A stretch of DNA of 64,000 nt from a virus: positions 1 to 64,000 of the IMG/VR virus record IMGVR_UViG_3300043446_005051; one strand, 5' to 3'. A program made the translations under genes and the position numbers. This document shows, in pieces, positions 1-51,000 of this stretch (the first letter of the stretch is position 1; every line of letters starts with the position of its first letter). The notes beneath the pieces were generated by a model. It was not told where the DNA came from and searched no databases. It saw nothing but the letters and a program-made list of their open reading frames with translations.

Positions 1-572
1 TTATTGTCATCATCTTCATTCCGAATCGCATTCAGAATGTCGTCAAGTTCAATTTCATCAGTATCATTATTGTCATCATCTTCATTCCGAATCGCATTCA
101 GAATGTTATCAAGATCTTCTTCATTGATATTATCATCCTCATCAGTCTCATCAGTCTCACTATTGTTATTGTCATCATCTTCAGACTGCAGCTCATTCAG
201 AATAGCCTCAGCTTGCAATTCTTTCAGAATAGCATCAGCTGCATTCTCAAGTTTCTTAGTATTACTATATTCTGCGCGGCGGCTATCAGAATAGGCATCC
301 TTATCAGCGGAGCCCAGATTAACAATATCAAACCCAGTCGTGTCGATATATTCAACTTCCTGAACTTTCACAACTTCACGCTTAACATTAGGATTGTACT
401 GCAATCCTGCGATAATGTTATCAGCGAGATCTTCAATCTTTTCCATACGCTTAGCTTCACGAACTGCCTTAGCTCGCATAGAGCTATTGTAAACACGTCC
501 TTGATTCTGCATTTCTTTAACGCGAGCACGACGGGCTGCGAGCTGTTCGTTAGTCTTTGTAATGTTGGTCAT
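1..572 (-). CDS. Acidic repeat protein, unknown function (partial, 3' end outside window)
   Basis: The frame opens at ATG 572 and runs to the left edge without a stop, giving at least 190 residues. The N-terminal third is basic and helical. The C-terminal part is rich in Asp, Asn and Glu and carries two copies of ILNAIRNEDDDNN, encoded by near-identical DNA at 3-36 and 69-102. I recognise no family; the repeats suggest a disordered acidic tail. Confidence 0.75.
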   Translation of the reverse strand, partial: MTNITKTNEQLAARRARVKEMQNQGRVYNSSMRAKAVREAKRMEKIEDLADNIIAGLQYNPNVKREVVKVQEVEYIDTTGFDIVNLGSADKDAYSDSRRAEYSNTKKLENAADAILKELQAEAILNELQSEDDDNNNSETDETDEDDNINEEDLDNILNAIRNEDDDNNDTDEIELDDILNAIRNEDDDN

Positions 573-720
573 GATTAGAAAATCAAAAGAAGAGTAAATA
601 TAATTTATATAATTATAGCTACGCCACACCCTCATTGCTGAGGTTTCCCCATTATAGCCACTATAAATTGCAACCGCGAGCTATAGTGGCCACTTGCACA
701 ACTGGCACAATTTTGAATAA
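573..720 (-). promoter_or_regulatory. Intergenic cassette: hairpin plus leader
   Basis: The first member of the intergenic family. A GTGCCAGTT...AAGTGGCCAC hairpin (686-708) follows the stop of the 62-aa gene, with a further AT-rich leader before the gene starting at 572. The promoter box is less clear here than in later copies. Confidence 0.45.
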
Positions 721-909
721 TTATAGCGGCGAAGACTGAATCAAAGACTTAACTTTATCCATCAGAATTGATGTTTCCTCATATTCTTTCTCAACACGAG
801 TTTTGAATTCTTTATCATAATCACTTGCATTCATCAAATCCACTTCTACAATATCTCTCAAACAAACGAGGGAAATAGAAATCAAATTGAGTTCTTCAGG
901 AGTGAACAT
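721..909 (-). CDS. Hypothetical protein, 62 aa
   Basis: Small soluble, predicted helical protein with charged Glu/Lys stretches (TRVEKEYEETSILMDKVK). It stands alone between two intergenic cassettes, so it is probably its own transcript. No family recognised. Confidence 0.6.
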   Translation of the reverse strand: MFTPEELNLISISLVCLRDIVEVDLMNASDYDKEFKTRVEKEYEETSILMDKVKSLIQSSPL

Positions 910-929
910 AATGAATGAAAAGAAGAAAG

Positions 930-1045
930 AAAAGAATAATTTATAGAAATTATCTATTTCTTATGCCCACACCCTGGGGCTCTACTATAATACCACACTT
1001 TAATCGTTGTGCTCATTTATTGTGCCAGTTACACAACTGGCACAT
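930..1045 (-). promoter_or_regulatory. Intergenic cassette: terminator hairpin, extended -10, leader hairpin
   Basis: Read on the minus strand: a perfect GTGCCAGTT-ACAC-AACTGGCAC hairpin (1022-1043), then TGG-TATTAT (-10 at 987-992), then a leader stem GCCC-(N8)-GGGC. Nearly duplicated at 1830-1950. Confidence 0.55.
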
Positions 1046-1052
1046 CAACTAT

Positions 1053-1340
1053 TCAATATGCCAATTCTTTCTCCTTAAGATACAATTCATAATTAAAATT
1101 AACCATAGCTTGAATCTTATTTGATTCTTCAGGATACTTTTCTTTCAATGCTTTAAGTGCTGCATTGTAAGAGTTTTCCCATTCATTATACATCACCTTT
1201 GCATCAATATACTTACCCGAATGAATAGGATTTGCTTCCATTTTATCAAGGTAATAATCTTGCTTTTTAAGAGAATAAACTAGAGAATTGTAAAAGTCAT
1301 TGATATTACAATCAAGAAAGAAAGAAGAATCAAGTGACAT
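1053..1340 (-). CDS. Hypothetical protein, 95 aa
   Basis: Soluble, tyrosine- and lysine-rich, predicted helical throughout. Monocistronic between cassettes, with its stop only about 10 bp before the hairpin at 1022-1043. No family recognised. Confidence 0.65.
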   Translation of the reverse strand: MSLDSSFFLDCNINDFYNSLVYSLKKQDYYLDKMEANPIHSGKYIDAKVMYNEWENSYNAALKALKEKYPEESNKIQAMVNFNYELYLKEKELAY

Positions 1341-1390
1341 AATGAATGAAAAAGAAGAGTGAAATTAACTAATTAAACTGAATTGTTATT

Positions 1391-1816
1391 TCAGATAGTA
1401 ATTACCTCCACATTGTACTTGTAGACATACTTAATCACCAGTGAAATGTACTGATAAACATTCACAATCACTGCAGTGATTGGTGCAAGAATAACAATAG
1501 GCTGATTCTGAATGTCCTGAGTAGACTTATCTGAAATAAGAATGATTTGTTGATATACCCAAACAATACCATCAATCAGTTTATTTGTATATTTCCTTGC
1601 AATCATACCTGCAAGATAAACAATACAGCAGGTTTTGATGATTGCATTCTTAATGTTATCTCGATTATTGTAGACATACTCTGCAATAATCAATGCAAAT
1701 GCAATCGCAATCTCCGTTATAAGAAATGCGATTTTAAGTGCATTTCCTGTCTTATTCTTAACGCTCACCCAATCAATAGAAGAAATAACAGACTGAAAAG
1801 AATTAAAGAAGTTCAT
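1391..1816 (-). CDS. Predicted membrane protein, 141 aa
   Basis: At least three hydrophobic segments are visible: about residues 28-48 (IAFLITEIAIAFALIIAEYV), about 58-74 and about 105-128. It is probably an inner-membrane protein of the infected cell. No family recognised. It has its own leader cassette upstream (1830-1950). Confidence 0.65.
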   Translation of the reverse strand: MNFFNSFQSVISSIDWVSVKNKTGNALKIAFLITEIAIAFALIIAEYVYNNRDNIKNAIIKTCCIVYLAGMIARKYTNKLIDGIVWVYQQIILISDKSTQDIQNQPIVILAPITAVIVNVYQYISLVIKYVYKYNVEVITI

Positions 1817-1829
1817 AAAAGAAAAGAAG

Positions 1830-1950
1830 AAAAGTGAATATAATTTATAGAAATTATCTATTTCTTATGCCCACACCCTGGGGCTCAACTACAATAGCAC
1901 ACTTTAATTCCCTTGGATTTGCTATTGTGCCAGTTTCACAGGTGGCACAA
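1830..1950 (-). promoter_or_regulatory. Intergenic cassette: hairpin, TGC-TATTGT promoter, leader hairpin
   Basis: Minus strand: hairpin GTGCCACC...GTGGCAC (1927-1948), extended -10 TGC-TATTGT (1891-1896) and the GCCC-(N8)-GGGC leader stem. The last ~80 bp are almost identical to the cassette at 930-1045. It would drive the membrane protein at 1391-1816. Confidence 0.6.
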
Positions 1951-1965
1951 TAGGGTTTATTATAT

Positions 1966-1994
1966 TTGACAACTTAATGTTGCTGTGATATAAT
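1966..1994 (+). promoter_or_regulatory. Consensus sigma-70 promoter on the plus strand
   Basis: TTGACA (1966-1971), 17-bp spacer, TATAAT (1989-1994): a perfect match to the sigma-70 consensus, pointing against all surrounding genes. The sequence downstream (2001-2126) has no ATG-initiated frame of useful length and ends near a T7 run (2119-2125). It could make a short untranslated RNA or an origin transcript. Confidence 0.7.
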
Positions 1995-2020
1995 TATATC
2001 AGCCCTGGACGACCATAAAA

Positions 2021-2076
2021 ATAAACATAAAAGAACGCATAAGATTGCGCAAGAATAAACATAAAAGAACGCATAA
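2021..2076 (+). repeat. Two direct copies of a 22-bp element
   Basis: ATAAACATAAAAGAACGCAT-AA occurs at 2021-2042 and again at 2055-2076, with a third shorter echo after 2077. Both copies lie within the presumptive transcript from the plus-strand promoter at 1966-1994. Confidence 0.8.
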
Positions 2077-2125
2077 AAATAAACAATTACTAAAGAATTA
2101 AAGAAGCACATATAATCATTTTTTT

Positions 2126-2240
2126 AACCATTTTATCACTCACTATAATCATAACAAATCAACATTTTATCACTCACTATAATCATAACAAATCAACATT
2201 TTATCACTCACTATAATCATAACAAATCAACATTTTATCA
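2126..2240. repeat. 34-bp tandem repeats, three copies plus a partial fourth
   Basis: Unit begins AACATTTTATCACTCACTAT and is 34 bp long. Full copies lie at about 2126-2160 (one-base variant at the left end), 2161-2194 and 2195-2228, and a partial copy runs into the stop of the gene ending at 2241. Copies are contiguous with no spacers, so this is not a CRISPR array. The layout resembles iterons. Confidence 0.9.
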
Positions 2241-2435
2241 CTAATTAAACTTTAATCGAGATTTAATAAAACTCAAATCATATAATACTTCATTCAAAAT
2301 ATCTACATCACAACACTTATCATCAACAGTAGCATTCCAATAATTAAAGACTTGTTCATCATATTGTGACAATTCATTTAATGCGGATTCAATTTGTTGT
2401 TGAATAAACATTGGATGAGAAGAATGATAAACCAT
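2241..2435 (-). CDS. Hypothetical protein, 64 aa
   Basis: Small soluble protein ending in TAG inside the fourth, partial 34-bp repeat. No family recognised. It lies 24 bp after the next gene upstream and is probably cotranscribed with it. Confidence 0.6.
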   Translation of the reverse strand: MVYHSSHPMFIQQQIESALNELSQYDEQVFNYWNATVDDKCCDVDILNEVLYDLSFIKSRLKFN

Positions 2436-2459
2436 TTTTATAGAATAATAATTGAACTC

Positions 2460-2669
2460 TCAATCAAGGCAACCATATTCATTCAGAAAACCTGCACACC
2501 ATTTGCCATCAGAATAGCAACCAACATAAAAGTTTCCAATAGCAAAACCGAATGATTCATCACCACAATCAGTATCATTTACAGGTTGAGAAGTATTATT
2601 ATTCCAACCAAGATAAAGAAAGCCAATATGAATATGGCCATAATTGGAAGTGAGATTAAAATTGTTCAT
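2460..2669 (-). CDS. Hypothetical protein, 69 aa
   Basis: Glycine-, aromatic- and Cys-containing small protein (DCGDESFGFAIGNFYVGCYS, then WCAGFLNEYGC). Four cysteines could bind metal or form disulfides, but no family is recognised. Confidence 0.6.
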   Translation of the reverse strand: MNNFNLTSNYGHIHIGFLYLGWNNNTSQPVNDTDCGDESFGFAIGNFYVGCYSDGKWCAGFLNEYGCLD

Positions 2670-2718
2670 GATGAGAGAGAGAGAAGAATAAAGAATGGAA
2701 TGAAAAGACTATATTAAA

Positions 2719-2907
2719 TTAAATAATAACTTTCTTAGTGTAAGGCTCACTGCGAATCTGCCACTTTTTAACATTAGGATAACTAGATGCAATATCGTGT
2801 CCTTTCTTTAGTGCCCAATGGTTAATTTTTTTATATGTACCAACTAAACCATTCATCAGAATAACATTATGATCATGATCCTGAACTTGAATGTAGAGAG
2901 TTTGCAT
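2719..2907 (-). CDS. Hypothetical protein, 62 aa
   Basis: I start it at ATG 2907 (MQTLYIQVQD) because the frame upstream is occupied by the promoter and terminator cassette at 2928-3022. Predicted mostly beta, with a basic C-terminus. No family recognised. Confidence 0.6.
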   Translation of the reverse strand: MQTLYIQVQDHDHNVILMNGLVGTYKKINHWALKKGHDIASSYPNVKKWQIRSEPYTKKVII

Positions 2908-2927
2908 CACAAAAAAAGAATAAAGAA

Positions 2928-3025
2928 TTAAATTGTACTCAGGATAAACTGAGCACTCATCTACAATAGCATAGATTAAGTGCTCTGGATTCTCTAGTGT
3001 GCCACTTGTACTTTTGGCACACTTT
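2928..3025 (-). promoter_or_regulatory. Intergenic cassette: hairpin, TGC-TATTGT promoter, leader hairpin
   Basis: Minus strand: hairpin GTGTGCCA...TGGCACAC (2997-3022), conserved AATCCA box 17 bp before TATTGT (-10 at 2963-2968), and a leader stem GTGCTCAG...CTGAGTAC about 10 nt after the -10. Confidence 0.6.
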
Positions 3026-3053
3026 TGAATCATTATATCTGTAGAATTATTCT

Positions 3054-3449
3054 TTACCTCATATAAAGATAGCTTCCACTCCAATCTGCATAATTATAAC
3101 ATTTATCACGCGAATCTGCATTCAATAGATTATATCGAACACCTTTGGCGGGAGCATTAAAAGATGCGGGCTTAAATACATTTCCGTTCATTTTATCAAT
3201 AAAACAATGAACAGATTTGGCGCCATAGGTAATAAGAACAACTTTCAGATATTTTCTACCTTCATCAATTTCAACATCGAAATTATAATCATAAGTTCCA
3301 TTACGAATACTTTCCAGACATTCTTTATGATGAGATGATTCAGGTGTTTTCTCTAAACAATTTTGATAAGATTTCATCTTATAATTCTTAAAATCTTCCT
3401 TAATAGATTCACAAAGAAGTTGTGAATAATGAAAAACTTCAGATGTCAT
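3054..3449 (-). CDS. Hypothetical protein, 131 aa
   Basis: Soluble mixed alpha/beta protein with no signal peptide or membrane segment. The N-terminal half is helical and Cys-containing, the C-terminal half beta-rich. No family recognised. Monocistronic between two cassettes. Confidence 0.7.
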   Translation of the reverse strand: MTSEVFHYSQLLCESIKEDFKNYKMKSYQNCLEKTPESSHHKECLESIRNGTYDYNFDVEIDEGRKYLKVVLITYGAKSVHCFIDKMNGNVFKPASFNAPAKGVRYNLLNADSRDKCYNYADWSGSYLYMR

Positions 3450-3452
3450 GAG

Positions 3453-3600
3453 AGAAAAAAAGAAAAAAGAACTTAATTCTATAATTATTATTGTCTATTT
3501 CTTTGTGCTATAGAAGCACTCAACTACAATAGCACACTTTAAGTTCTCTGGATTGTTTAGTGTGCCACTTGTATTTGTGGCACACTTTTCAATAATTATA
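3453..3600 (-). promoter_or_regulatory. Intergenic cassette, copy 1 of a ~146-bp duplication
   Basis: Hairpin GTGTGCCA...TGGCACAC (3560-3585), extended -10 TGC-TATTGT (3526-3531), leader stem GTGCT-TCTAT-AGCAC and an AT-rich leader. Essentially identical to 4188-4338 apart from one A in an A-run. Confidence 0.7.
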
Positions 3601-3602
3601 CT

Positions 3603-4181
3603 TTATGAAGAAAACCGCTTCAAACAAATTGGACCAATTCCCAGAGCAATAGAAATTGCATCGGACAATTCACGATTACATACAGAACAGCAACCTGTTT
3701 CATGACCATATACTTTAGCCAATTCAAGAAGATTTTCATTTGCATCTTCTAACAGATTCAAAATATCTTCGTTCGATTGATTAAATTGTGCAATTCCGTC
3801 CTTTGTAATTTTACCTACATAATTCTTATTCTCGAAAATATAAAGTCCGCCCTGATTGATTCCATTTGGAATAGTACAGACCGAAACATTAAATGGCAGA
3901 TTCAAATTAAACTTACGATTTGGTGATTTCACACCCTTATACATCTTTTCAACCAATTCTTTATATGGACCAATTTCAGGTTCCTTAAATAACTTATTCA
4001 CTTCTTCAGTCGCAAGATAGTGCATCCACGACATCTGCGAATCCGAAGGATTGACTGCAGAAAGTAAAGAAAGAATGAATTGATTAGTTGAATTCAAACC
4101 AATCAGAAAGCTTTTGACTTCATCTATATCATCAAAAGCAGATTCAAACTCAATAACTTGTCCCTTGCGTGTGATGTTCAT
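3603..4181 (-). CDS. Zinc-ribbon protein with DUF6011-like C-terminus, 192 aa
   Basis: The last ~30 residues contain GCCSVCNRELSDAISIALGI followed by GPICLKRF. This is the CxxC...(G/P)xxC arrangement of DUF6011-type small zinc-binding domains, common in phage and plasmid proteins. The N-terminal 150 residues are mixed alpha/beta with no recognised fold. Probably a nucleic-acid or protein-binding early protein; the function is not inferable further. Identical control cassettes flank it on both sides. Confidence 0.8.
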   Translation of the reverse strand: MNITRKGQVIEFESAFDDIDEVKSFLIGLNSTNQFILSLLSAVNPSDSQMSWMHYLATEEVNKLFKEPEIGPYKELVEKMYKGVKSPNRKFNLNLPFNVSVCTIPNGINQGGLYIFENKNYVGKITKDGIAQFNQSNEDILNLLEDANENLLELAKVYGHETGCCSVCNRELSDAISIALGIGPICLKRFSS

Positions 4182-4187
4182 TGTAGA

Positions 4188-4338
4188 GAGAAAAAAAAGA
4201 AAAAAGAACTTAATTCTATAATTATTATTGTCTATTTCTTTGTGCTATAGAAGCACTCAACTACAATAGCACACTTTAAGTTCTCTGGATTGTTTAGTGT
4301 GCCACTTGTATTTGTGGCACACTTTTCAATAATTATAT
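4188..4338 (-). promoter_or_regulatory. Intergenic cassette, copy 2 of a ~146-bp duplication
   Basis: Same elements as 3453-3600: hairpin 4297-4322, -10 TATTGT at 4263-4268, and leader stem. It separates the 68-aa gene from the zinc-ribbon gene. Confidence 0.7.
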
Positions 4339-4544
4339 CACGCCATCACAACTTCCTCTTCATTTTCAATAACCATCTCGTCCTCGTTTTCACTATAATT
4401 AGTGTCCTCAACTTCATTCGACATAGAATTATTCACAAATTGAACATTCTCATCAGAAGTAATAGCACTCAGAATATCAAGAATCTGACTACCATTATTG
4501 CCACGACGCAGCATGGACAGATAGAGTTCGCGAGTCATTTCCAT
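4338..4544 (-). CDS. Hypothetical protein with acidic tail, 68 aa
   Basis: Begins MEMTRELYLSMLRRGNNGSQ (an alternative ATG lies at 4538) and ends in a Glu/Asn-rich acidic tail. The MTRELYLxxLRRGNxGxxIL pattern is, from memory, frequent in small cyanophage proteins of unknown function. Confidence 0.7.
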   Translation of the reverse strand: MEMTRELYLSMLRRGNNGSQILDILSAITSDENVQFVNNSMSNEVEDTNYSENEDEMVIENEEEVVMA

Positions 4545-4623
4545 TTGTATAAAGATTAAGAAATTAAAGTTGAATAAATGTGGAGTGTCTTTATAGCGCC
4601 GCTGCCATTGCGCGCTGATTTAA

Positions 4624-4845
4624 TTATTCACCCCATTGAATATAAAGAGTAGTGTCAACTCCAATACTTTGTTTCCTATTCTTATAAGATTTCACTCCAG
4701 TTACGATAACATCAAAAATATCTGCATAAGAATCTTCGTCAACTGGAGCGGTATAATTATATCCATCAAAACACTTGACTTCAATATCTTCACCCAGTTC
4801 AGCTTTTGCTTTATTCAAAAGAACAAGAAGTTCAGAGAGTTTCAT
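4624..4845 (-). CDS. Hypothetical protein, 73 aa
   Basis: Small acidic protein beginning MKLSELLVLLNKAKAELGED. The start resembles small phage proteins that pair a short helix with a beta sheet. No function assignable. Confidence 0.7.
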   Translation of the reverse strand: MKLSELLVLLNKAKAELGEDIEVKCFDGYNYTAPVDEDSYADIFDVIVTGVKSYKNRKQSIGVDTTLYIQWGE

Positions 4846-4867
4846 AATAAAAAGAAATTGAAAATTG

Positions 4868-4945
4868 TTTGAGGCTTGAATACATTAGCACACTAGGAGG
4901 TGCTCTGGATTTTCTAGTGTGACACTTGTACAACTGGTCCATTTT
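4868..4945 (-). promoter_or_regulatory. Intergenic cassette, degenerate
   Basis: Imperfect hairpin at 4917-4942 and -10-like TGC-TAATGT (4882-4887). No clear leader stem follows. Confidence 0.45.
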
Positions 4946-4957
4946 CAAATAATTATT

Positions 4958-5200
4958 TCACTGAGGTGGATATAAATCCATTGCTTGATCAATCAAATCA
5001 TCAAGTTTCTCTATTCCATTAAAACCTGTACCACGAACATTCAATAAATGAGAAGGATAAAACTTCTCCCCTGTTTCTTTCGTCCAAGGTGTTCCGTATT
5101 GTCTTAGTGTAAGTAATTCCAGATTTTTTTGTTCCTTAATCCAACGATAACGATTTGCATCTTTGAGTAATTGGTTATACTCTTCTTTTGAAATGTTCAT
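4958..5200 (-). CDS. Hypothetical protein, 80 aa
   Basis: Started at ATG 5200 (MNISKEEYNQLLKDANRYRW), because the only earlier start is TTG. This N-terminus, EYxxLxxxAxRYRWIK, is common in small phage proteins of unknown function. The C-terminal LDDLIDQAMDLYPP fits that family. Confidence 0.75.
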   Translation of the reverse strand: MNISKEEYNQLLKDANRYRWIKEQKNLELLTLRQYGTPWTKETGEKFYPSHLLNVRGTGFNGIEKLDDLIDQAMDLYPPQ

Positions 5201-5232
5201 AATGAGCAAAAATCAATGATGAATTGGAATAA

Positions 5233-5481
5233 TCAATAAAGATTACTGAAAGATCCACACCATTTACGAACCCAATCAAGTGTCTCGCTATAACTATTTC
5301 GAGGCGATGATGCAGTCATACTACAATTTGAACGAGGATTGTATGCAATAGCAACATATTGATTATCACATTCTTTATCTGTAATTTGTTGAATCCACAT
5401 CTGATTCATTTCACAATCTTTATAGTTCCAGGGCGAAACATTGTAATAGAAAATTGGTGAAACAATAGAATAATCAGACAT
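5233..5481 (-). CDS. Hypothetical protein, 82 aa
   Basis: Soluble, aromatic-rich protein with Cys and Trp residues. No family recognised. Upstream gene of a two-gene unit with 4958-5200, driven from the cassette at 5500-5600. Confidence 0.65.
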   Translation of the reverse strand: MSDYSIVSPIFYYNVSPWNYKDCEMNQMWIQQITDKECDNQYVAIAYNPRSNCSMTASSPRNSYSETLDWVRKWCGSFSNLY

Positions 5482-5499
5482 TACAAAAGAAAGAATAAA

Positions 5500-5600
5500 G
5501 AATTAAATTGTGCTCAGGATAAACTGAGCACTCAACCACAATAGCACACTTTAAGTGTGCTGGATTTGTTAGTGTGCCAGTTTCACGACTGGCACAATTT
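5500..5600 (-). promoter_or_regulatory. Intergenic cassette: hairpin, TGC-TATTGT promoter, leader hairpin
   Basis: Hairpin GTGCCAGTC...AACTGGCAC (5574-5595), AGCACACTT/AAGTGTGCT inverted repeat overlapping the promoter, -10 TATTGT (5538-5543), leader stem GTGCTCA-(N8)-TGAGCAC. Confidence 0.6.
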
Positions 5601-5607
5601 TCAATAA

Positions 5608-5826
5608 TTATACAATTTCATAGAAGACTTCTTCTACACACCAACCTGTTTCATCTGTGATTACATCTGCAATCTCATCTTCGCAATCTACAGTGTAAAC
5701 TTTATCCAATACAGATTGAATCACTTCATTTTTATATGATTCAGTCAGTTCTTCCTCTTCTTCTACAGTAAACCCATAATCATCATTGAAATCAAACTTA
5801 ATTTCAGTAACTTTGAGTTGAATCAT
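5608..5826 (-). CDS. Hypothetical acidic protein, 72 aa
   Basis: Start chosen at ATG 5826 (MIQLKVTEIKFDFNDDYGFT); the upstream extension is the leader hairpin. Acidic, with an EEEEE run. Similar in outline to the 62-aa product of 6393-6581 (N-terminal beta segment, then a helix, then a tryptophan or glycine turn). Function unknown. Confidence 0.65.
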   Translation of the reverse strand: MIQLKVTEIKFDFNDDYGFTVEEEEELTESYKNEVIQSVLDKVYTVDCEDEIADVITDETGWCVEEVFYEIV

Positions 5827-5839
5827 GACAAAGAAAGAA

Positions 5840-5945
5840 TAAAGAATTAAATTGTACTCAGGATAAACCGAGCACCTAACCACAATAGCACACTTTATGT
5901 GCTTCAGATTCTCTAGTGTGCCACCTCTACAAGTGGCACATTTTT
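5840..5945 (-). promoter_or_regulatory. Intergenic cassette: hairpin, TGC-TATTGT promoter, leader hairpin
   Basis: Hairpin GTGCCACTTGTAGAGGTGGCAC (5917-5940), -10 TATTGT (5882-5887), leader stem GTGCTCGG...CTGAGTAC. One stem pair is a G-U wobble rather than a Watson-Crick pair. Confidence 0.6.
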
Positions 5946-5951
5946 GAATAA

Positions 5952-6131
5952 TTATTCAGGAATAAATTGTGATTTCAATTCTCGAATCAAAATAAGAGAG
6001 TAATCAAATCCCTCTTCAATTTGAAGATGCTCTTTATATTTTTCAGCCTCAGATAGACTTTCAAAAAGTTCAAGACTCGAAGCTGTTTGTCCTTCGTAGT
6101 CTATACCACCAACAACACAGTAAACTTTCAT
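5952..6131 (-). CDS. Hypothetical protein, 59 aa (MKVY family)
   Basis: MKVYCVVGGIDYEGQTASSL then LELFESLSEAEKYKEHL. The layout (beta strand, FxSxxEA helix) matches the 70-aa product at 22594-22806, so the two look like diverged paralogs. Similar small phage proteins translate a ruler-like beta-alpha unit; function unknown. Confidence 0.7.
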   Translation of the reverse strand: MKVYCVVGGIDYEGQTASSLELFESLSEAEKYKEHLQIEEGFDYSLILIRELKSQFIPE

Positions 6132-6143
6132 TGTTTTAATAAA

Positions 6144-6392
6144 TCAAAGAACAGGATTGAGATAATTAAGAAAATGAGAACCAACTTTACATTTGGGAGT
6201 TTCGGTATACTCACAGATAATTACTTGATTCAATTCAAGTTCATCATTGACTATAAAATTATAACTTCCATTCTCTTTAATTTTTCTTTCAATAACTTGT
6301 GCAAACTCTTTCGTTACACTACAGGTATGATGACACCTTGAAGAGTTTTTATATTGAATGCAGAAATTGATGGTTGCAAATGAGAGTTCCAT
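6144..6392 (-). CDS. Hypothetical protein, 82 aa
   Basis: Cys- and His-containing small protein (SSRCHHTCSV at residues 17-26). Immediately follows the gene stopping at 6393, with no gap, so probably translationally coupled. No family recognised. Confidence 0.65.
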   Translation of the reverse strand: MELSFATINFCIQYKNSSRCHHTCSVTKEFAQVIERKIKENGSYNFIVNDELELNQVIICEYTETPKCKVGSHFLNYLNPVL

Positions 6393-6581
6393 TTAATGAG
6401 AATCAGTGAGAATTACATAATTCAAATCAATGATATTTGCTCCAATTTCTTGAGAAATCAATTCAATGAGATTCTCTTCACTTTGTACATCATATGTACG
6501 AGATAAAATACTTTTTAATACTTGTTCAGATAGATTTACTGAACATTTAATATCTGTGATTCGATAATACATTCTATTCAT
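6393..6581 (-). CDS. Hypothetical protein, 62 aa
   Basis: Small protein with beta-strand N-terminus (MYYRITDIKCSVNLSE) and a helix. Its stop directly abuts the next start at 6392. A perfect inverted repeat of GGGAGACC/GGTCTTCC type lies upstream (6603-6645). Confidence 0.65.
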   Translation of the reverse strand: MNRMYYRITDIKCSVNLSEQVLKSILSRTYDVQSEENLIELISQEIGANIIDLNYVILTDSH

Positions 6582-6602
6582 TTCGTGAGAGGTATCTATA
6601 AG

Positions 6603-6646
6603 AGCCTGGAAGACCTATTAAATAGTTTATAGGTCTCCCAGGTTCA
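6603..6646 (-). terminator. Hairpin between the 57-aa and 62-aa genes
   Basis: CCTGGAAGACCTATTAAATA followed by GTTTATAGGTCTCCCAGG forms a long stem, sitting between genes 6665-6838 and 6393-6581. A different sequence from the GTGCCAGTT family. Confidence 0.55.
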
Positions 6647-6664
6647 CAATAGTTTTTATAAGGC

Positions 6665-6838
6665 TTAAATCTTCGCCTGAGCTTTCTGAATAGCAGCAGT
6701 GACAGAAGTCAGAATGCTTTTAACAATACCTTTGCGGTCTTTCACAACATAAACAATTCGTTCGGGATCAATTTCATTCTTAAACATTGCACGATGCTCA
6801 GGCGTCAGATTCTTAAATTGAACAACTTGAGTGAGCAT
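6665..6838 (-). CDS. Hypothetical protein, 57 aa
   Basis: Starts at ATG 6838 (MLTQVVQFKNLTPEHRAMFK). Small basic helical protein. The upstream in-frame sequence is a promoter cassette, so the longer frame is not used. No family recognised. Confidence 0.65.
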   Translation of the reverse strand: MLTQVVQFKNLTPEHRAMFKNEIDPERIVYVVKDRKGIVKSILTSVTAAIQKAQAKI

Positions 6839-6854
6839 AAGAAATAGAAAAGAA

Positions 6855-6950
6855 ATTAAATTGTACTCGAAACTCCGAGCACTCATCTACAATAGCATGG
6901 ATTAAGTGCTCGGGATTCTCTAGTGTGCCAGTTTCACGACTGGCACATTT
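6855..6950 (-). promoter_or_regulatory. Intergenic cassette: hairpin, TGC-TATTGT promoter, leader hairpin
   Basis: Hairpin GTGCCAGTC...AACTGGCAC (6926-6948), -10 TATTGT (6889-6894), leader stem GTGCTCG...CGAGTAC. Compared with 2928-3025, the stem has both sides changed (TCAG/CTGA to TCGG/CGA), which suggests the structure is maintained. Confidence 0.6.
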
Positions 6951-6955
6951 TACCC

Positions 6956-7642
6956 TCATTTTGCCGCGCTAAGTGCTCGATTATTTGATGTACCCGAAGC
7001 CTGACGGTTCAGTGATACTGTAGATCCAACACTTGAACCTGCAACTGCACCTGCACCATAAGCAGATTTCATGTTTGTCTTTTTATTAAATCGAACCATT
7101 GCCAACTTATTCTTTACTGCATCAGCATGGTCGTGAATCCTATTTTGTTCTTTCTTCATCTCTTTCAGTCGAGATGAAATAGTATCTGCAAATGCTTTTG
7201 AAAATTGAGTCTTAAACCCACGATTCACACTTGAACCAGTAAGAGAAGAAATAACTTTTTCTGCGGCATATGCTTTATCTGCTTCTTTCTTCATTACATC
7301 TACAAGATATTCATAATAAAGTTTCGTTTGTATCTGTTGAGCTTCACTTCCAATAACTTTAAGTGATTTATCTCCAGATGCAGAAGTATAAATATAAGCC
7401 TTTGCATCATAGAAAGATGCTACAGCATTTAGAATCAGAGCATAAGCTGCATTCATTTTCTTAAATGCAAGAAACTCTTCATCTAATACTTGTACAGAAG
7501 TTGCTTCTTCCATTGTAATACCATATTTGGCACACAATTTATCAATCATATTTGCTGCAACTTCAGCTTCATTCTCAAAATTAGTTCCTTCCTGAAGTTT
7601 CAGAAGAGATTGAATCTTGTCAATAATTTGTTGACGGTTCAT
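6956..7642 (-). CDS. DUF2786 family protein, 228 aa
   Basis: The N-terminus (MNRQQIIDKIQSLLKLQEGT, then NEAEVAANMIDKLCAKYGIT) is the hallmark helical region of DUF2786 proteins, frequent in phages and plasmids. The C-terminal ~70 residues are basic, then Ser/Gly-rich and probably disordered. Members often sit with DNA metabolism genes, but no biochemical role is established that I know of. Monocistronic between two cassettes. Confidence 0.85.
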   Translation of the reverse strand: MNRQQIIDKIQSLLKLQEGTNFENEAEVAANMIDKLCAKYGITMEEATSVQVLDEEFLAFKKMNAAYALILNAVASFYDAKAYIYTSASGDKSLKVIGSEAQQIQTKLYYEYLVDVMKKEADKAYAAEKVISSLTGSSVNRGFKTQFSKAFADTISSRLKEMKKEQNRIHDHADAVKNKLAMVRFNKKTNMKSAYGAGAVAGSSVGSTVSLNRQASGTSNNRALSAAK

Positions 7643-7679
7643 TGTAAAATGAAAAGAGAAAAGAACTTAATTGTATTTA

Positions 7680-7785
7680 ATATAATAATTTACATTTCGT
7701 ACTCGACAAACCGAGCACCCAACTACAATAGCATAGATTAAGTGCTCTGGATTCTCTAGTGTGCCACCTCTACAAGTGGCACAAT
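7680..7785 (-). promoter_or_regulatory. Intergenic cassette: hairpin, TGC-TATTGT promoter, leader hairpin
   Basis: Hairpin GTGCCACTTGTAGAGGTGGCAC (7762-7784), -10 TATTGT (7725-7730), leader stem GTGCTCGG-TTTG-TCGAGTAC. Drives the DUF2786 gene. Confidence 0.6.
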
Positions 7786-7786
7786 T

Positions 7787-7915
7787 TCAATTTACTATTT
7801 TGGAATGAATCTCTTTGAGAGTAATGTTTACAACACTAACTCCAATGTCAATCACATTAGAAATGCCACTCAATCCGATAGCAGCAACAGCAAATCCAGT
7901 GAAAAATAGTTTCAT
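7787..7915 (-). CDS. Small membrane protein, 42 aa
   Basis: MKLFFTGFAVAAIGLSGISN is a single hydrophobic N-terminal segment, followed by a short polar tail. It lies 6 bp after the 67-aa gene and just before the hairpin at 7762-7784, as the last gene of a small operon. Function unknown. Confidence 0.55.
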   Translation of the reverse strand: MKLFFTGFAVAAIGLSGISNVIDIGVSVVNITLKEIHSKIVN

Positions 7916-7921
7916 AATAAA

Positions 7922-8125
7922 TCAAGCAGCAAGAACAAGAGTTGCAATTCTTTCTTCGGGTGTCATTTTGTTGAGCTTATCGCTTATAGAATCAAATTGA
8001 TCGATAATTTTGTGATAGTATTCAGAAAGATGAAACTTTCCAGATTCTTCTGCAATTTCTGCTTTATCTTCCAAAGCAGAAATAATATCAAAAATCTCGC
8101 CAGAAGTGAAGGAAAGGCTAGTCAT
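7922..8125 (-). CDS. Hypothetical protein, 67 aa
   Basis: Starts at ATG 8125 (MTSLSFTSGEIFDIISALED). All-helical small protein with heptad-like spacing. Middle gene of the operon 8161-8358, 7922-8125, 7787-7915. No family recognised. Confidence 0.65.
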   Translation of the reverse strand: MTSLSFTSGEIFDIISALEDKAEIAEESGKFHLSEYYHKIIDQFDSISDKLNKMTPEERIATLVLAA

Positions 8126-8160
8126 TTTGATTAGAAAAAAGAAAGAAAAAAGAAATAAAA

Positions 8161-8358
8161 TCAGCGGATGGAAGAAATAACGCAATCATCCCAGGAATCT
8201 GGAATATAACGATGAATACGATTCAGTTTGGACACAAAATAAGGAATGTCTTCGGTATGAATATCAGTCAAGAGTTGAACATTTTGTGCAATTTCATTAT
8301 GAGTCCTCATACGCCGGAAATAACGATTCTCAGGAACATTGCGAAAAGTGTGTGACAT
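8161..8358 (-). CDS. Hypothetical protein, 65 aa (WDD family, paralog 1)
   Basis: Ends in NRIHRYIPDSWDDCVISSIR. The same NRxHRYIPxxWDDxVIS ending and a similar FRRxRTxxEI stretch occur in the 76-aa product at 29313-29543, so this is a paralogous pair. Basic N-terminus. Function unknown. Confidence 0.75.
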   Translation of the reverse strand: MSHTFRNVPENRYFRRMRTHNEIAQNVQLLTDIHTEDIPYFVSKLNRIHRYIPDSWDDCVISSIR

Positions 8359-8394
8359 AGTGTTTCTGAAAAGAAAGAACTTAATTGTAGAATT

Positions 8395-8490
8395 ATTATT
8401 TAATAACGAGCCGACTCTTTCGAGCCTTTAATAGGATAGCACAGATTAAAGGCTGAGGATTCTCTAGTGTGCCAGTTTCACGACTGGCAC
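8395..8490 (-). promoter_or_regulatory. Intergenic cassette with variant leader stem
   Basis: Hairpin GTGCCAGTC...AACTGGCAC (8469-8490) overlaps the 3' end of the membrane gene at 8478. The -10 is TGC-TATCCT (8433-8438). The leader stem has changed to GGCTCGAAAGAGTCGGCTC. Confidence 0.5.
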
Positions 8491-8684
8491 GTTTTTAATT
8501 TATATATTTGGGGATTTGGGAATAAATGTGTGCGTGACACACCGTAAATAATAAATCCATTAGTAATGAGAACTTGAATAGCAAATACAAGTCGAATAAA
8601 TGCAACAATATCTGCCTCTCTTTTAGTTCTTCCACTTTTAGAACCTAAAGAATAACAAATATATCTCCACAATTTACTTAACAT
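8478..8684 (-). CDS. Predicted membrane protein, 68 aa
   Basis: Basic N-terminus (KSGRTKRE), then one hydrophobic segment FIRLVFAIQVLITNGFIIYG. The start at 8684 overlaps the upstream stop by 11 bp, so coupled translation is likely. The last codons run through the hairpin at 8469-8490. Confidence 0.55.
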   Translation of the reverse strand: MLSKLWRYICYSLGSKSGRTKREADIVAFIRLVFAIQVLITNGFIIYGVSRTHLFPNPQIYKLKTCQS

Positions 8685-8919
8685 GACGAATAATTTCTTT
8701 GTTAATAACAACTCGATGACCTTCGGGCATCTTAGAAATAATATCCCGAGTCAGAATAGTTCCAGGATTATATTTACCCATAGGACGACTATGATTCTTT
8801 ACTTTTGGAATGTCTACACCTGGGCGAAACTTAGAAGAATCAGTATCATTTTTGAACTTTTCATCTCCACCATAACCATCATAAACTTTAGTGTTCATTT
8901 TGGGTGAAATTGCAGGCAT
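8674..8919 (-). CDS. Hypothetical protein, 81 aa
   Basis: Gly/Lys/Asp-rich, probably partly disordered N-terminus, then a short folded end (TRDIISKMPEGHRVVINKEI). First gene of a pair with the membrane protein at 8478-8684. No family recognised. Confidence 0.65.
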   Translation of the reverse strand: MPAISPKMNTKVYDGYGGDEKFKNDTDSSKFRPGVDIPKVKNHSRPMGKYNPGTILTRDIISKMPEGHRVVINKEIIRHVK

Positions 8920-8990
8920 TGTTAGAATAGCAGAAAAAACAACGAAAGGGTTTGGTACTGTGCCACTTTAACTTGTGGCACAGTAACTAT
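8920..8990 (-). promoter_or_regulatory. Hairpin GTGCCACAAGTTAAAGTGGCAC
   Basis: Nearly perfect stem at 8960-8981 between 9054-9479 and 8674-8919, the same family as the other GTGCCA hairpins. I see no clear extended -10 in the short gap. Confidence 0.45.
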
Positions 8991-9053
8991 TTGTTATACA
9001 AGTAGAGGATGAATAATAGGAACCAAACTTCAACAATGATTAGACAATCAAGT

Positions 9054-28690: not shown

Positions 28691-28719
28691 ACAAATTGTC
28701 ACAAGAGCTATTGATTATA

Positions 28720-28845
28720 TTGACAAATATAAAATCACTGCTACAATCCTTCTGTTACTGAAGGATTTATTATATCTATAAGAATACTATAGAATATTTA
28801 ATCGAGAGATGACCGAAGGTCATTTACTCCGAAGGAGTAAATTCT
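28720..28845 (+). ncRNA. Putative small RNA unit, copy A (promoter plus two hairpins)
   Basis: TTGACA (28720-28725), 16-bp spacer, extended -10 TGC-TACAAT (28742-28747), then an AT-rich stretch and two hairpins with GAA loops: ATGACC-GAA-GGTCAT (28809-28823) and TTTACTCC-GAA-GGAGTAAA (28823-28841). On the minus strand the same hairpins have cUUCGg loops and sit 6 bp after the HNH gene stop. A near-identical unit lies at 50728-50850. It could be a plus-strand small RNA, a bidirectional terminator or both. Confidence 0.5.
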
Positions 28846-28846
28846 C

Positions 28847-29308
28847 CTAAGCAAATAGATACTCTTTCCATTCGCTTACATTTGACCTATGAATCGTTAG
28901 AGAGATTTTATTGTATGGTTTGTAAGGTTGAAATAGTAATTTCATTCCAGCTTCACTAGGAGTTCTATTCCCTTTTTTGAGATTACACTTTAGACAAGCG
29001 GTTATCAAATTGGACCATTCATCTTGACCATTACGAGATTGAGGTATAATATGGTCAACTGTTAAATTTTCTTTTGAATTGCAATAAGCACAAGTATGAT
29101 TGTCTCTTGTAAAGATTGATCGACGAGTAACATTATTTGACATAATTCGATTATAAGGCAATCGAATATAATTTACCAATCGAACTACGTGTTCTGAAAG
29201 AATTTGAACTTTTTCTTTAATAATATAAACAATCGCTTTTCTTTTTGAAACAATATTAATCGGAGCATAGTCCGCATTTAATACAAGAATTTGATTTTTG
29301 AGTTTCAT
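28847..29308 (-). CDS. HNH endonuclease, 153 aa
   Basis: Core CAYCNSKENLTVDHIIPQSR then NLITACLKCNLKKGNRTP shows two CxxC zinc pairs and the HNH histidine-asparagine-histidine residues of the common HNH fold. ATG 29308 lies just below the stop of the 76-aa gene. It could be free-standing, homing or packaging-associated; nothing decides. Confidence 0.85.
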   Translation of the reverse strand: MKLKNQILVLNADYAPINIVSKRKAIVYIIKEKVQILSEHVVRLVNYIRLPYNRIMSNNVTRRSIFTRDNHTCAYCNSKENLTVDHIIPQSRNGQDEWSNLITACLKCNLKKGNRTPSEAGMKLLFQPYKPYNKISLTIHRSNVSEWKEYLFA

Positions 29309-40911: not shown

Positions 40912-40989
40912 ATAATAGACCTCCAGGTTTGTGCATCGTTGAGAGGCATAGGAGGGGTGGGACTTAAACGACGTTTGGACCGCCGTTGC

Positions 40990-41040
40990 CCATAAAAGTA
41001 ATTTATCAGATGACCCCAACTTTGTCAACTGTATTGTGCC
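40990..41040 (-). promoter_or_regulatory. TTGACA-17-TAAATT promoter for tRNA-Arg
   Basis: TTGACA (at about 41027), 17-bp spacer, TAAATT. The intervening GTTGCCCATAA region is a leader of unknown folding. Confidence 0.55.
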
Positions 41041-50720: not shown

Positions 50721-50727
50721 TAATTAA

Positions 50728-50850
50728 TTGACAAACCTAGAATCATTGCTATAATCCTTCTGTTCCTTGAAGGATCTATTATATCTATAGAACTCTATAG
50801 TATATTAAATCCGGGAATGTCCGAAGGACTTTACTCCGAAGGAGTAAAGA
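50728..50850 (+). ncRNA. Putative small RNA unit, copy B
   Basis: TTGACA (50728-50733), 16-bp spacer, extended -10 TGC-TATAAT (50750-50755), then hairpins GTCC-GAA-GGAC (50819-50829) and CTTTACTCC-GAA-GGAGTAAAG (50829-50849). Ends 1 bp from the stop of the 49-aa gene. Near-identical to copy A (28720-28845), with the first stem changed on both sides (GACC/GGTC to GTCC/GGAC). Confidence 0.5.
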
Positions 50851-51000
50851 TTATTCCAACTCTTGGAGTGCTTCAAGAGCTCCTTGTATTTTTAGAAACT
50901 CTTCTTTTTTCAAATTGAATTCACTTTCAATTTCTCTTAAAGTTTTAGCTAGGTCTACTGCTTTTTCAGAAAGCATATCAAACATTTCTTTTTTTTCCAT
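50851..51000 (-). CDS. Coiled-coil protein, 49 aa
   Basis: MEKKEMFDMLSEKAVDLAKT. All-helical with heptad spacing to the end. It lies directly after the fibre gene; a short chaperone or trimerisation helper is possible but unsupported. Confidence 0.6.
   Translation of the reverse strand: MEKKEMFDMLSEKAVDLAKTLREIESEFNLKKEEFLKIQGALEALQELE

Follow-up and report, generated by a model that had tools for sequence, protein, structure and literature searches.

What is the purpose of a perfect sigma-70 promoter that opposes the genes around it and is followed by repeats? The question is raised by a short element near position 2000 of a 64,000-nucleotide stretch, termed the window here, taken from the start of a virus contig 89,426 bp long (IMG/VR record IMGVR_UViG_3300043446_005051). 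An earlier note on this DNA regarded the element as a candidate replication origin, with a small RNA as the alternative. Judging from sequence comparison with relatives, we propose that the element is probably the, or at least a, replication origin of this T4-like cyanophage, primed by a transcript and of a kind common to the Kyanoviridae.

The promoter lies on the plus strand and matches the consensus exactly, with TTGACA at 1966-1971, a spacer of 17 nucleotides (nt), TATAAT at 1989-1994, and a TG one base 5' of the -10 hexamer that makes it an extended -10 promoter. Sites of the form TTGACA-N15-19-TATAAT number four in the window where 0.23 are expected, a count reached by no shuffle, and in a weight-matrix scan of the whole 89,426-bp contig this promoter ranks first (score 15.6). 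It is not unique in the contig, because the same scan identified two further strong intergenic plus-strand promoters, at 28720 and 50728. All recognisable genes near the element are carried on the minus strand and are thus opposed by the promoter; both the promoter and its orientation had been correctly described. The claim that no open reading frame (ORF) is present holds for the plus strand, but a 45-codon minus-strand ORF without a Pfam hit (1974-2111) overlaps the element. Two direct repeats reported as 22 bp long are indeed present, their actual length being 23 nt exact or 26 nt at 96% identity, with starts separated by 34 nt, and the run of seven T and the tandem 34-bp repeats are found as described. 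The features of the element are as follows.

1926 to 1949, no strand: palindromic hairpin TGTGCCAGTTTCACAGGTGGCACA, the end of a minus-strand intergenic cassette adjoining the promoter; the same hairpin adjoins the promoter in the related contig L158
1966 to 1994, plus strand: sigma-70 promoter TTGACA-17-TATAAT with extended -10, antisense to the genes and aligned to the L158 antisense promoter
1987 to 2000, no strand: 14-bp perfect palindrome GATATAATTATATC over the -10 hexamer and the expected start site, read from the sequence
2008 to 2018, plus strand: GACGACCATAA, the window's version of a motif, (A)AGATGACTATAA, that is conserved in the initial transcribed region and reads CCTGGATGACGATAAGA in L158; alone not significant
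2017 to 2042, plus strand: direct repeat copy 1 (exact over 2020-2042), p ~0.01 against shuffles
2051 to 2076, plus strand: direct repeat copy 2 (exact over 2054-2076), from the repeat search
2041 to 2240, no strand: stretch of 77% A+T, at the 99th percentile of the contig by composition, a candidate unwinding element that includes the T7 run at 2119-2125
2129 to 2242, no strand: 34-bp tandem repeat, 3.4 copies, 100% identical, private to this phage (absent from L158, IMG/VR and phage records)

Support for an origin comes from the recurrence of this arrangement in the Kyanoviridae, in which an antisense promoter-like site with the core GCTAAGANNAC lies between baseplate gene 25 and a block of ORFan genes. 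A scan of Kyanoviridae records for strong promoters revealed antisense promoters in RN05-S and DSL-LC02, each followed by AAGATGACTATAAGAT, and pattern scans of IMG/VR together with BLAST searches of phage records enlarged the family to include S-B43, S-SM2, P-TIM68, ACG-2014d and roughly 20 environmental contigs; of the 87 matches to the first motif pattern, most fell within unrelated ORFs. Members found by pattern carry the core by construction, and their promoters were selected in part, but position, orientation, repeats and DnaA boxes played no part in member selection. In the named genomes the element is located on the ORFan side of gp25-gp6-gp7, approximately 1.5-10 kb from gp25 (that of S-H35 was placed by its position beside the baseplate genes), and it is antisense to most of its neighbours in 26 of 26 members, the balance in DSL-LC02 being close when raw ORFs are counted. 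Among genomes chosen via gp25 homology or by name, Syn33, S-RIM2, Sf-CH11, P-SSM4 and Syn9 carry an antisense GCTAAGANNAC between gp25 and the ORFan block, and S-CAM9 carries the core variant GCCAAGATCAC in the same place and orientation; in ACG-2014f the core was not found, and only a weaker candidate with repeats was seen. The element falls at about 52.6 kb in Syn9 and about 58.1 kb in S-SM2; the 177 kb of Syn9 hold two further core matches elsewhere, on the sense strand. In a second subgroup (L149, L150, L151, L152, L009, L142 and Syn9/L160), TTGACA or a close variant stands 17 nt before TAAGAC, such that the core itself occupies the place of the -10 hexamer; here the start site may have moved, with the core retained.

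Two kinds of sequence accumulate downstream of the core. The cyanobacterial DnaA box TTTTCCACA (PMC4674748, PMC3480399) is present in 25 copies in 26 member loci (280 kb), 18 of them downstream of the core at a distance of at most 400 nt and the other 7 elsewhere, and for the relaxed box TTWTNCACA the rate ratio downstream of the core is 25 in the same loci; because some loci are close relatives, the 18 boxes are not 18 independent events. Outside this set, S-RIM2, Syn33, Sf-CH11, S-H35 and Syn9 have two or three boxes roughly 70-190 nt downstream of the core. Syn9 contains four boxes in its 177 kb, two of which fall 91-115 nt downstream of the core (by our own arithmetic, the chance of two of the four lying in one given 300-nt stretch is ~2e-5), and DSL-LC02 contains five in 168 kb, two of them downstream of the element. 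Boxes are found at the element in about half of the relatives examined. Direct repeats are the other recurring sequence: at p<=0.02 against shuffles, one is present within the initial 130 nt of the predicted transcript in 13 of the 25 members, with offsets that vary (20 nt in DSL-LC02, 10 nt in L040, 21 nt in L066, 35 nt in S-CAM9 and 34 nt in the window) and sequences that differ between lineages. The direct repeat is the DnaA box itself in S-SM2, L131 and ACG-2014d, and several members without boxes have marked direct repeats, a pattern that would be compatible with an initiator-binding array that can be exchanged. When all member loci are pooled, mean A+T content downstream is at the 81st percentile, as compared with the 99th for the window copy.

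The window copy is tied to this family through a related contig, L158. The best DNA match of the contig among phage records is S-SRM01, a freshwater Synechococcus phage, and the structural genes at the far end of the contig match T4-like families (head closure, DNA end protector, tail tube cap, baseplate wedge), with gp4/gp2/gp48-like genes ordered as in DSL-LC02 and a helicase, 38% identical to that of S-SRM01, on the side expected from the family gene order. Exact searches of IMG/VR with the 34-bp and 23-bp repeats yielded no relatives, nor did distant BLAST of the region against phage records, and the repeats are therefore private. As queries, other single neighbour proteins found no relatives; the protein encoded at 6956-7642 succeeded, leading to contig L158, which encodes a protein 57% identical to it and carries the same hairpin cassettes. 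The antisense promoter block of L158 aligns to window positions 1923-2089 (~170 nt) with a score of 91 against a shuffle maximum of 34; part of this score is supplied by the shared cassette hairpin, but the match runs on through the promoter and beyond. CCTGGATGACGATAAGAAACATATAAGA in L158 corresponds to CCTGGACGACCATAAAAATAAACATAAAAGA in the window. Another relative, L156, has a clear antisense element (nhmmer 4e-12); that of S-SRM01, also antisense, is found at 5e-8, and a period-20 repeat runs across it. The 34-bp array is a recent private expansion, since L158 lacks it and its copies do not differ from one another; the suggestion that it marks an origin, in the manner of iterons, is weakened accordingly, and the proposed search for it in related phages came back empty.

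A transcript-primed origin is proposed because the polarity and neighbourhood of the element resemble those of T4 oriE, and because, according to PMC2984593, cyanophages have neither motA nor asi and probably rely early on the host polymerase in unmodified form. Directed by its main sigma factor, host RNA polymerase would start the antisense transcript at about position 2001 early in infection; the transcript would enter the A+T-rich stretch with its direct repeats and stay there as an R-loop, and the RNA, once cut, would prime leading-strand synthesis toward the ORFan block and away from baseplate genes 25-6-7. Where one to three boxes stand just downstream, as in many relatives, host DnaA bound at them could help in duplex opening or helicase loading, a place that other direct repeats may take in other phages, including this one.

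By analogy, the closest T4 parallel is the early-promoter origin oriE, rather than the middle-promoter oriF. T4 oriE depends on an early promoter and contains 12-nt direct repeats (PMC3016281), and in the T4T annotation it lies 1.7 kb upstream of gene 6, from which it is read away, with a primer RNA complementary to gene 5. Shared with the element are an early (host sigma-70) promoter, direct repeats, a primer RNA, predicted in the case of the element, that is complementary to a neighbouring late-gene transcript, and a location immediately upstream of baseplate gene 6 with transcription directed away from genes 6-7-8. In contrast to the element, oriE overlaps gene 5 and has repEA/repEB; it contains no DnaA boxes when checked for them, and no sequence similarity between the two was noticed on inspection. 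At oriF and oriG, a promoter is followed by an A+T-rich unwinding element and the transcript primes the leading strand (PMC3016281), a layout that the element would share, although these are MotA middle promoters and transcription from oriF follows the direction of uvsY. Clustered TTTTCCACA boxes liken the element to cyanobacterial oriC (PMC4674748, PMC3480399), from which it differs in that neither dnaN nor dnaA lies beside it and the boxes number only one to three, with none in several phage lineages, this one among them. The literature searched contained no mapped origin for any T4-like cyanophage and cited only a single predicted theta origin, that of Syn9 (review PMC2984593); this prediction, like the present reading, assumes one origin in a T4-like cyanophage.

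Several observations weigh against an origin of this kind, or against assigning the window copy to it. A GC-skew switch, the check that the earlier note had recommended, is seen at the element neither in the window nor in DSL-LC02, Syn9 or the S-SRM01 segment. The contig ends ~2 kb beyond the element, short of gp25, and because of this we infer the gp25-side synteny of the window copy from the order helicase, fibres, gp4/gp2. The combined score of motif and promoter in the window falls within the maxima of Markov sequences and is not significant alone, a profile built from the other members does not report the window site, and the exact core GCTAAGANNAC / AAGATGACTATAA is absent from the contig, GACGACCATAA standing at 2008 instead. 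No TTTTCCACA box is found at the window element, even with one mismatch allowed, and no exact DnaA box at the element of S-SRM01, S-CAM9, P-SSM4, ACG-2014f or the RN05-S group. Finally, the spacing of the promoter relative to the core differs between the two subgroups. Set against these points, synteny, antisense orientation, the occurrence of one element per locus, repeats, frequent DnaA boxes and the oriE-like layout lend the proposal of an origin strong circumstantial support, even as the 34-bp array proved private and GC skew gave no sign of it.

The main rival, which we consider unlikely while taking it seriously, is a conserved antisense or small regulatory RNA beginning with AAGAUGACUAUAAGA that targets transcripts of phage or host, through base pairing or by binding protein, and has no replication role. 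Such an RNA would agree with the conservation of the initial transcribed sequence in one subgroup, with the structured units driven by the other plus-strand intergenic promoters of the contig, and with the known antisense RNA CfrI of S-PM2 (PMC2984593), an antisense transcript in a cyanomyovirus as the element's would be, albeit from another locus (psbA and a homing endonuclease gene). However, RNA from the window folds no better than shuffles on either strand, an Rfam search found no fitting family (at a relaxed threshold the sole match, to GIR1, is meaningless), no plus-strand terminator was found just downstream of the promoter, and the DnaA boxes and direct repeats downstream would be left unexplained.

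The remaining explanations fare worse. It is quite improbable that the promoter merely stands beside a mobile PeSL-like cassette of the ORFan block and has no special importance: a palindromic hairpin does adjoin it in both the window and L158, and some 16 similar hairpins occur within the first 15 kb, but the other cassettes have no plus-strand promoter of such strength, marine relatives have the element without such hairpins, and PeSL combine a stem-loop with an early promoter that reads in the same direction as the gene that follows, whereas the element is antisense. Very improbable, too, is a leaderless mini-gene, in which ATG ACT ATA AGA at the transcript start would encode a short basic peptide (MTIR...) comparable to RepEA at T4 oriE. 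Many members do begin with ATG ACT ATA AGA/AAA, and small antisense ORFs are known at T4 oriE; nevertheless, ACG replaces ATG in the window, the other subgroup (GCTAAGACTAC) has no ATG, and the peptide reading is rejected because the frames diverge at once, many stopping after a few codons. That the promoter arose by chance in an A+T-rich intergenic stretch is scarcely credible: the Markov maxima noted above are in its favour, but it must contend with a perfect consensus and is already contradicted by conservation, namely the L158 ortholog and the synteny and orientation seen throughout the family.

Other features of the contig deserve mention in their own right. Between 1000 and 15000, the palindromic hairpin TGTGCCA-N-TGGCACA occurs in approximately 16 intergenic cassettes, which resemble PeSL shuffling cassettes; those at 3480-3600 and 4205-4335 are nearly identical, and cassettes of this type are also present in L156 and L158. 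Polypyrimidine leaders (>=75% C/T in 25 nt) precede 10 of the 22 genes within positions 1-9000 and a Shine-Dalgarno motif none, as compared with 3 and 23, respectively, of 114 genes in the rest of the contig. A 66-bp tandem repeat occupies the contig end (1-124), within an acidic-protein gene by minus-strand reading. A plus-strand unit, in which a strong promoter is followed by conserved hairpins (ATCCTTC..GAAGGAT, CCGAAGG, TTTACTCCGAAGGAGTAAA), occurs in two copies, at 28715-28855 and 50723-50860; with one compensatory change between them and no match for the second copy in phage records, it is a candidate new small RNA. Lastly, an abiF RNA (RF03085, 50.2 bits against a gathering score of 37) lies on the minus strand at 40919-40955, beside a tRNA-Arg and downstream of a near-perfect promoter (41000-41028, minus strand). 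Four of its neighbours were tested (PDDEXK_5, GNAT, ferritin and Dam), and none is an Abi_2/AbiF protein; the phage abiF RNA could be a solitary decoy against AbiF-type defence.

Both in the sea and in fresh water, T4-like cyanophages rank among the most common viruses. More tentatively than for the element itself, it is possible that they share one conserved origin in which an antisense primer promoter like that of oriE is combined with DnaA boxes of the host type, whereby host DnaA would join in initiation, and that lineages such as this one have swapped the boxes for repeats of their own. We know of no participation of DnaA in phage initiation for T4, and no literature linking cyanophages with DnaA boxes in this sense was found, a claim of novelty limited to the literature searched. 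The element provides an exact, testable place near gp25 in the cultured phages Syn9, S-SM2, P-TIM68 and S-RIM2, and suggests that the oriE-like layout extends beyond the T4 group. Host DnaA may be recruited to it and, if this is true, phage replication would be tied to the replication control of the host.
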